Shown one piece after another: positions 8,469 to 18,171 of a DNA stretch of 35,128 bases. This DNA is from Candidatus Goldiibacteriota bacterium (GTDB lineage: Bacteria; Oederibacteriota; PGYV01; DSYL01): NCBI GenBank assembly GCA_018000835.1, contig JAGNJD010000029.1, positions 1 to 35,128 of the forward strand. Reading direction: 5' to 3'. The translations under genes were made by a program, and so were the position numbers. The first letter of the stretch is position 1, and the number at the start of each line of letters is the position of its first letter. The notes under the pieces are model-generated. The model was not told where the DNA came from and made no database searches. It saw nothing but the letters and a program-made list of their open reading frames with translations.

Positions 8469-8483
8469 TCGTATAGAAACCAT

Positions 8484-8509
8484 TGCTGTTCAATTAATTT
8501 AATTGAAGA
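8484..8509. repeat. AT-rich palindrome, related to a copy at 17652-17678
   Basis: TGCTGTTCAATTAATTTAAT continuing TGAAGA contains the palindrome TTCAATTAATTTAATTGAA (8489-8507). It lies in the 81-base gap between the convergent marC-like and CDF genes and could act as a weak two-way terminator. A near copy, with one extra base, occurs at 17652-17678. Confidence 0.4.
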
Positions 8510-8549
8510 ATTGTTGCATTTTTTGTAATAAGTGGTTGAAAAGCAGAAA

Positions 8550-17217: not shown

Positions 17218-17390
17218 ATAGAATTATTACAAGAAACATAAATCCAAGACCACAAAAAAGAACTAAAAATATGGGATTTTCTTCGTTGAATTTTAACAGG
17301 AAAAGTGCAATCAGGAATTACGGGAAAGGTGCAGTTCCAAAGGGATATGCAAAAGGAAGCAGGATTACAATGGGCAGTGGCAGAGCCTGA
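17214..17390 (+). CDS. Small, very basic 58-residue ORF coupled to the thioredoxin lipoprotein
   Basis: The frame starts at the ATG overlapping the upstream stop (ATGA, 17214-17217) and ends at TGA 17388-17390. The product, MNRIITRNINPRPQKRTKNM then GFSSLNFNRKSAIRNYGKGA and a GSGRA tail, is rich in Arg, Lys, Asn and Gly with no acidic residues seen. No family is recognised. Its last codons lie inside the folded RNA-like element, so the natural C terminus may have been replaced by insertion of that element. Coupling by overlap and clean coding-like sequence before 17370 argue that it is or was translated. Confidence 0.45.
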   Translation: MNRIITRNINPRPQKRTKNMGFSSLNFNRKSAIRNYGKGAVPKGYAKGSRITMGSGRA

Positions 17391-17648
17391 CGGGGCAGTC
17401 AGACAGCCATCGGTAATTTATAGGCATCCCATCGCCGTCTAGTGGGACCCCCCTCGGGCTAAAGCCCGAGGCTCCCACAAAAAATTCAATCAACTTCGTT
17501 GATTGACCAAGGGACGAGGAATACCGGTGATATTCCGCAGCGACCTTGGAACCCTCTTGGCAAAGTAGATAAAACATTTTTAATGTGTGCATTTATAAAA
17601 TATCTCACTGAGATATTTTATTCCCCAAATTGAAGTTTGGGGTTTTCT
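17375..17648 (-). ncRNA. Highly structured RNA-like element, possible HEARO/omega RNA without nuclease
   Basis: In about 270 bases at least six perfect or near-perfect stems occur: CTGAC/GTCAG (17387-17402), GTGGGA/TCCCAC (17442-17478) enclosing CCTCGGGC/GCCCGAGG (17452-17471), TCAATCAAC/GTTGATTGA (17486-17506), CCAAGG/CCTTGG (17507-17549) enclosing GGAATA/TATTCC (17518-17536), AAAATATCTC/GAGATATTTT (17597-17619), and CCCCAAA/TTTGGGG (17623-17642). GC content is well above the neighbours. Read on the minus strand the CCTCGGGCTTTAGCCCGAGG stem and the GATGGGATGCC...GATGGCTGTC part recall guide-scaffold RNAs of IS200/IS605-type TnpB and IscB (HEARO). No IscB, TnpB or TnpA gene is adjacent. Strand and family are inference; the structure itself is plain. 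Confidence 0.5.
17623..17648 (+). terminator. Intrinsic-terminator-like hairpin at the edge of the folded element
   Basis: CCCCAAA (17623-17629), loop TTGAAG, TTTGGGG (17636-17642), then TTTTCT. On the plus strand this is a fair rho-independent terminator for the GT4/thioredoxin operon. On the minus strand it would be the first stem of the element. Confidence 0.5.
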
Positions 17649-17651
17649 GAA

Positions 17652-17678
17652 TGCTGTTCCAATAAACTTAATTGAAGA
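17652..17678. repeat. Second copy of the 8484-8509 repeat
   Basis: TGCTGTTCCAATAAACTTAA continuing TTGAAGA matches 8484-8509 at most positions with one extra base. It begins right after the folded element, so it may mark the element's flank or be part of it. Confidence 0.35.
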
Positions 17679-18171
17679 TTACAAACGTCCTTTGAGAAAA
17701 TAGAAAGTAGAGGATAGGAAGTAAATCAAAAATGATTATGAGATATGGCCCACATTACTGTGAGATATAGTTTGCAATAAAATAACATGTTAACAATGAA
17801 CGCAGGTAAAATAACCATTGTTCCATTTTTTTATAATTCAAGTCATTGCGGGGACAATGAAAGATTAAGGAAGACAGGTAATATCAGGATGGCTGGGATG
17901 GACGAAGCAATCTTGCAGTTAAAAGACGATTGTATTCGGAAACATTTCAACAGATGGATTGCTTCTGCTTTCGTTAAACCTTCTGCAGAGCTCATAAATG
18001 TTTGAAAAAAAGACAAGTAAACGTTCATTTTGTTCGCAATACTGCTCTCTGCTTTCCAATTATTATGATTTGATGTCTATTTAAAACATAATCGTTCAAT
18101 AAGATATGTATTTAAACAAAATATTCAAAATTTATTTTTTTACATGCCAGGAGTCACCATAATTATCAGAC

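Follow-up and report, generated by a model that had tools for sequence, protein, structure and literature searches.

PATEs are gene-less derivatives of IS605-type transposons which have near-terminal palindromes and a targeting oligonucleotide, cause no target duplication and are described as being without terminal inverted repeats (PMC3119063). A PATE-like sequence has also been reported in a bacterium (PMC7290912), and IS608 and ISDra2 target the lagging-strand template for insertion (PMC6006769). Here, we describe a repeated and structured element (element A, family A) in a 35,128-nucleotide stretch of DNA, referred to as the window, from the draft genome of Candidatus Goldiibacteriota bacterium (GCA_018000835.1, contig JAGNJD010000029.1). 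The preliminary description of this locus had regarded positions 17375-17648 as an orphan folded RNA resembling HEARO or omega RNA. Based on the analyses below, we instead consider it probable (about 0.82) that family A is a gene-less, PATE-like non-autonomous IS200/IS605 element, representing a new family of a known kind.

The host assembly (2.32 Mb, 74 contigs, 94.5% complete) was searched for copies using R1, a covariance model built for family A, which resulted in 53 matches, with split hits and contig-end fragments counted in, that is, roughly fifty copies. The borders of the aligned copies place the repeated unit on the minus strand at 17441-17661, with the TTTAT target adjoining at 17662-17666, rather than at 17375-17648 (Table 1). 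Read 5' to 3', the element runs TGGAACAGC...GTCCCACT in the window and ATTGGAACAGCATTC...GTCCCACT in the family, with a unit length of about 195-250 nt across the aligned copies. The folded stems themselves are well founded, as the fold of 17375-17648 beats dinucleotide shuffles on both the plus (z -5.6) and the minus strand (z -4.6), with 0/200 shuffles as good, and both the AAAATATCTC/GAGATATTTT arm and the CCTCGGGCTTTAGCCCGAGG hairpin exist in the sequence. The raised GC content is likewise real (0.46 for the interval 17375-17648 and 0.43 for element A vs 0.35 for the whole window). The GATGGGATGCC/GATGGCTGTC part, previously seen as belonging to an RNA scaffold, is located in the 66-base single-copy flank, the fold of which is no better than that of shuffles (z -0.4 plus, -1.2 minus). 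Finally, the element is an orphan in that no nuclease or transposase gene was found among the neighbouring genes scanned, but with its many genome copies it does not stand alone.

Mean identity among the host copies is 93%, and a few of them are 5'-truncated. The insertions are essentially intergenic: 34/39 are outside any ORF of at least 80 aa, and the other five are in ORFs of 81-92 aa that may be spurious. Outside the host genome, R1 matched seven times in G009, a genome from another family of the same order with copies 69-77% identical to those of the host, while no element A was found with R1 in two genomes of the same genus. This horizontal spread, with absence from two same-genus genomes and presence in a different family, counts in favour of the PATE-like reading. 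A genome-collection pattern scan found element A in DYJU01 only (labelled Candidatus Methylomirabilis sp.), where three loci hold the same copies as G009, the remaining matches being chance matches inside genes. Viral contigs gave chance matches only, relatives of element A itself were not found in the plasmid and phage collections, and among 384 relatives, outside phyla included, there was no additional genus with element A except for a weak match in G029.

Element A is composed of a left-end (LE) structure, two internal hairpins (P2 and P3) and a right-end (RE) structure. Within the LE, the outer stem arms at 17649-17654 and 17589-17594 pair with each other, one pair being broken in the window copy. 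The AT-rich palindrome is missing in most G009 copies and some host copies, and P2 is a simple 22-nt hairpin in G009 and in the host copy C74:26768. The family also contains a conserved ATCTACTTTGCC stretch, and the element ends with ...GTCCCACT about 10 nt past the inner RE hairpin. Across the copies, the AT-rich palindrome, the P2 inner hairpin, the extra P3-loop hairpin and the LE hairpin are optional modules. Additionally, the right arm CCCTTGG has two potential partners, the tandem left arms that read GCCAAGAGGG and TTCCAAGGG across the family (minus strand, window ~17543-17561 and 17507-17513), and their co-variation with it in several copies suggests alternative pairings.

Table 1 Features of element A and its surroundings in the window.
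Feature	Positions	Strand	Basis
Family-A element, PATE-like non-autonomous IS200/IS605 type (probable)	17441..17661	-	Boundaries from aligned copies, sharp 5' and 3' borders
Single-copy flank outside element A, holding GATGGGATGCC/GATGGCTGTC	17375..17440	.	No other genome copy; fold does not beat shuffles
Target pentanucleotide TTTAT, host side of left end	17662..17666	-	Border base counts; TTTAT/GTTAT also before haloarchaeal TnpB-element left ends
LE structure, outer stem GCATTC/GAATGC around AGAAAA spacer and hairpins	17589..17654	-	Double changes in G009; layout common to TnpB-element left ends
LE hairpin, 8-bp stem, 4-nt loop, CCCCAAAC..GTTTGGGG in family	17623..17642	-	Aligned copies
Optional AT-rich palindrome ATAAAATATCTC/GAGATATTTTAT (the AAAATATCTC/GAGATATTTT arm)	17595..17621	-	Aligned copies
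Internal hairpin P2, CCAAGG.../...CCTTGG, with inserted inner hairpin	17507..17549	-	Aligned copies
Internal hairpin P3, TCAATCAAC/GTTGATTGA	17486..17506	-	Aligned copies; extra loop hairpin in some
RE structure, GTGGGA with TCCCAC around hairpin CCTCGGGC/GCCCGAGG	17442..17478	-	Aligned copies

Three observations had been named beforehand as refuting the RNA reading. Two of them, a single genome copy and a lack of compensatory base changes in relatives, do not apply, and the third, no covariance-model hit, does. Among ten representative sequences, 10/63 pairs changed on both sides, and the double-change cells amounted to 16 vs 5.3 in shuffles, with slid registers performing far worse. Clear double changes were found in the LE outer stem (GCATTC/GAATGC to GTGTTC/GAACAC in G009), in P2 (CCAAGGG/CCCTTGG-type to CCAGAGAG/CTCTCTGG) and in the RE hairpin, where CCTCGGGC/GCCCGAGG is replaced by ACCGAC/GTCGGT in locus L071. 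These double changes imply that the palindromes of family A are maintained.

The insertion sites are highly specific on one side only. At the 5' border of the 32 full-length copies, T is found at position -2 in 32/32, at -1 in 31/32 and at -3 in 22/32, followed by an invariant AT, so that the copies come after TT plus AT, mostly as TTTAT (22/32). The 3' side ends with CACT, and the flank beyond it is unconstrained. Flank matches were not in excess of shuffles at any border offset tried, and there is thus no target duplication. When the two ends are compared, their terminal 8 bases (ATTGGAAC/GTCCCACT), which partly include target bases, are complementary at 6/8 positions, with fewer complementary in G009. 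Further, the TTTAT-bearing strand is the one richer in G across the ~6 kb around the insertion in 30/32 copies (t-test p 3.6e-9), compared to 42% of control intergenic TTTAT sites (binomial p 1.1e-9 vs copies), and at the ~20-kb scale in 29/32, the exceptions being C15, C17 and the window copy. Genes are mostly co-oriented in the host genome and transcription is therefore a possible confounder of this bias. However, third-position GC skew on that strand is 0.074 for the 272 co-directed and 0.061 for the 48 opposed genes and, being positive for both orientations, is linked to replication. The G-rich strand corresponds to the leading-strand sequence and hence to the lagging-strand template. The strand bias of family A thereby fits an element that a Y1 enzyme moves in single-stranded form. 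The window copy is on the minority strand, with positive skew throughout the surrounding window, and could reflect a local inversion or an insertion into the leading-strand template.

The affiliation of the element is best seen from its left end. In G029, R1 matched a 113-nt element with an E-value of 1.3e-5 in that genome, a weak but credible match, and this element is present in two genomes (G029 and G038) from another family of the same phylum. Its left half in turn matches haloarchaeal plasmids with 90% identity over 41 nt (E 4e-6), and all four such sites that were inspected lie upstream, by ~100 bp, of a CDS whose annotation reads TnpB (two) or transposase only (two). The LE layout is the same in element A, in that of G029 and in all four haloarchaeal elements, with TTTAT (one GTTAT), 18-20 nt, outer stem, AGAAAA/AGAATA, a hairpin of 8 bp and a 4-nt loop, ATGAAT and the second outer-stem arm. 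Within the 32-nt LE core, identities are 25/32 between A and the G029/G038 element, 29/32 between G029 and haloarchaeal elements and 22/32 between A and haloarchaeal elements, the best background match among 119,892 positions being 20/32. The right ends of the three are alike in layout (hairpin, ~10 nt) and different in sequence. Together, these comparisons support homology between the left end of A and those of IS200/IS605 elements that carry TnpB. The 113-nt element is itself PATE-like (L131, L132, L136), has an LE nearly identical to the haloarchaeal TnpB-element left ends and, judged from this resemblance, may link the bacterial phylum with the haloarchaeal elements.

The suggestion that the locus could be a non-autonomous mobile element is borne out by a dispersed multi-copy repeat with covarying stems and an LE homologous to TnpB-carrying elements, and the superfamily first proposed was roughly right, while the HEARO/omega RNA identity is unsupported. 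Family A has several of the traits of PATEs, namely a near-terminal palindrome related to IS605 at the left end (at the right end by layout only), a short fixed target with a TTAT core on one side only and a length of ~195-250 nt, which is too short for a transposase. It also matches IS608 and ISDra2 in inserting on the lagging-strand template, the window copy excepted. According to the PATE-like reading, family A would be moved in trans by a Y1 (HUH) transposase that binds the LE and RE hairpins while the DNA is single-stranded. Its left cut would follow TTTAT and its right cut CACT, which would release the element as a single-stranded circle for insertion 3' of a TTTAT that lies exposed on the template of the lagging strand. 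Copy number, borders, target, lack of target duplication, strand bias, the homology of the LE and the covarying stems are observed here, whereas we infer which enzyme mobilises A, exactly where it cuts and that a circle is formed; the positional evidence for A all fits a substrate of DNA transposition. Against the PATE-like reading we count that no intact partner with A ends was found in the host genome, G009 or relatives, that the A right end has no sequence counterpart among the right ends of TnpB elements, that 6/8 terminal bases are complementary even though terminal inverted repeats are described as absent from PATEs, that the window copy is on the minority strand, and that P2 and P3 covary although transposition should need the ends only.

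For the partner enzyme, only two Y1 matches were found in the host genome, both weak or decayed: C11:37698 contains an internal stop and C47:119306 is a 77-codon fragment. No Y1 match was found in G009 (84% complete). None of the 23 Y1-gene loci in 12 relatives had A ends in the R1 search. The decayed IS200 of the host (C11:37698, L051) may have a faint 3' similarity to A (GGTATCACT vs GGTCCCACT). A TnpB fragment in G009 (L182) and the intact TnpBs in G007 (L181, L190) were considered as parents and rejected, as they do not carry the A ends; no model match to the A right end was found in TnpB-element loci, and none that was convincing in the G007 tnpB loci. In the host genome, the transposase that would mobilise A seems to have been lost or to have escaped assembly, and more generally the enzyme may have been lost or may sit in unassembled repeats of the draft genomes. 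Such a loss is reported for Haloquadratum, in which most tnpA genes are disrupted (PMC3119063).

Movement of a REP/BIME-like element by a RAYT, not by an IS200-type TnpA, is an unlikely explanation. The GTGG head beside the 3' palindrome, GTGG-GAG-CCTCGGGC...GCCCGAGG, agrees with the GT(A/G)G head rule for REPs (PMC2817692, PMC6006769), and one genome of the same genus has a Y1 gene beside REP-like GTAGCCGCAGGC...GCCTGCG repeats (L166), whose hairpins gave the best R1 hit beside any Y1 gene without amounting to an element match. Nevertheless, the LE has an IS605-type layout without a GT(A/G)G head, the unit is ~220 nt with a fixed TTTAT target, and no intact RAYT flanked by A was found among the Y1 genes in 12 relatives. 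The REP-like hairpins accompanying the Y1 transposase gene in L166 (G001) are GTAGCCGCAGGCTTTAGCCTGCG and GTAGCCGCAAACTTTAGTTTGCGG.

We also regard as quite improbable that A is an orphan omega RNA or reRNA, in which a minus-strand transcript would be the scaffold for a TnpB or IscB encoded elsewhere, with the guide 3' of CACT and TTTAT as the target-adjacent motif. The LE homology to TnpB-carrying elements, the TTTAT left flank and the covarying internal stems would all agree with such an RNA. However, Rfam gave no match at the gathering threshold and, with hits up to E 10 considered, nothing credible on either strand, and the right-end RNA is not common with tnpB loci. The idea that the element is served by a nuclease elsewhere finds no support in the TnpB profiles PF07282 and PF01385, which gave no match in the 94.5% complete host genome and did give matches in control genomes; a search with PF14239 (IscB) had no match in the host genome, but none in any control genome either, and this silence carries no weight. 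If minus-strand RNA were under selection, G-U should exceed A-C at paired positions. The minus strand has 16 G-U vs 23 A-C pair types, and without a G-U excess nothing in the stems points to selection as a minus-strand RNA. Template switching can also homogenise palindromes, and with the few covariation events at hand covariation thus leaves an RNA function of A unproven. We give similarly little weight to a functional RNA domain, retained or newly acquired by A (P2/P3 and the nearly invariant single-stranded AUCUACUUUGCC), that would act with a guided nuclease in trans or regulate the movement of the element itself, making A a mobile, RNA-only relative of TnpB systems.

A classical MITE of a DDE insertion sequence, with ATTGGAAC/AGTGGGAC as short TIRs, would account for the 6/8 complementary terminal bases and would have company in the clear TIR-type MITE family B of the same genome, but we find it very improbable given the missing target duplication, the asymmetric target specificity and the strong strand bias. 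DDE insertion sequences can lack target duplication, and its absence therefore lowers the probability of a DDE MITE without excluding it. Least credible of all is an origin by retro-insertion of an RNA, for example a degraded group II intron: group II introns can also favour the lagging-strand template, and the strand bias, structured body, few 5'-truncated copies and terminator-like hairpins directly preceding three G009 copies would agree, yet there is no group II intron or other Rfam match, terminator adjacency is not enriched in the host genome (4/39 vs 5-9% in controls) and the LE is homologous to an IS605-type end.

Two further repeats were also noted. Family B, a second dispersed repeat with 45 genome matches and TIRs CATTGCTGTCCGGTTAATTTAATGGAAGGATTG (loci L084-L113), looks like a classical MITE and has left two relics in the window, at 8481-8537 and 1947-1987. 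Some A copies are nested in B (L043 5936-6150, L048 2498-2682, L036 3443-3532 and C54:16039, i.e. L202), all of them without the 3' hairpin, joining B at a single point between TTT and ATTACG and ending with ...TTTTTAYT. They may stem from a single old insertion that multiplied together with B, or may be a shorter form of A that is itself mobile. As they lack the 3' hairpin, the junction provides no clean empty site for full-length A. A third gene-less repeat (~319 bp in L071, ends GTAATAGTTCAGCCAC...) is inserted into A copies of G009 (L069, L071, L075, L077), with an apparent 8-bp target duplication in L071, and has a 21-base match at window positions 17904-17924, beside element A.

This locus illustrates that what stands out in raw sequence as a structured "orphan RNA" can instead be a substrate of single-stranded-DNA transposition, and that target motif, absence of target duplication, replication-strand bias and the balance of G-U vs A-C are tests that part the two. 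The insertion pattern is evidence from a natural genome that a non-autonomous element inserts on the lagging strand, and the LE layout appears to be common to a little-studied bacterial phylum and haloarchaeal TnpB elements. Should the internal domain be functional as RNA, it would bear on guide RNAs outliving their nuclease.

Among described systems, the PATEs of Haloquadratum walsbyi (PMC3119063) resemble A in having no transposase gene, IS605-related near-terminal palindromes, no target duplication, a 5' targeting oligonucleotide, many copies, nested mobile elements and mostly decayed host tnpA, whereas A is bacterial, has two extra covarying internal stems and a faint 6/8 terminal complementarity, and its parent was not found. 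REPs and BIMEs with RAYTs are like A in the GT(G)G head before the 3' palindrome, the dispersed intergenic copies and the probable single-stranded DNA enzymology; A differs in its larger unit, distinct left end and fixed TTTAT, and its cognate RAYT was not found. HEARO is a multi-copy structured element that can exist without an ORF, as A does, but the HEARO/IscB omega RNA is unlike A in that A has no covariance-model match and no adjoining nuclease gene. IS1341-type TnpB-only elements of haloarchaeal plasmids (L177-L180) have LE spacer and stem lengths equal to those of A, TTTAT/GTTAT and an RE hairpin followed by ~10 nt, but carry tnpB, and their RE sequence GGAGGATGTCAA and internal RNA region are unrelated. 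The 113-nt element of G029 and G038 is half as long and without P2 and P3, but has in common with A the LE layout, the TTTAT target and an RE hairpin with an outer stem.
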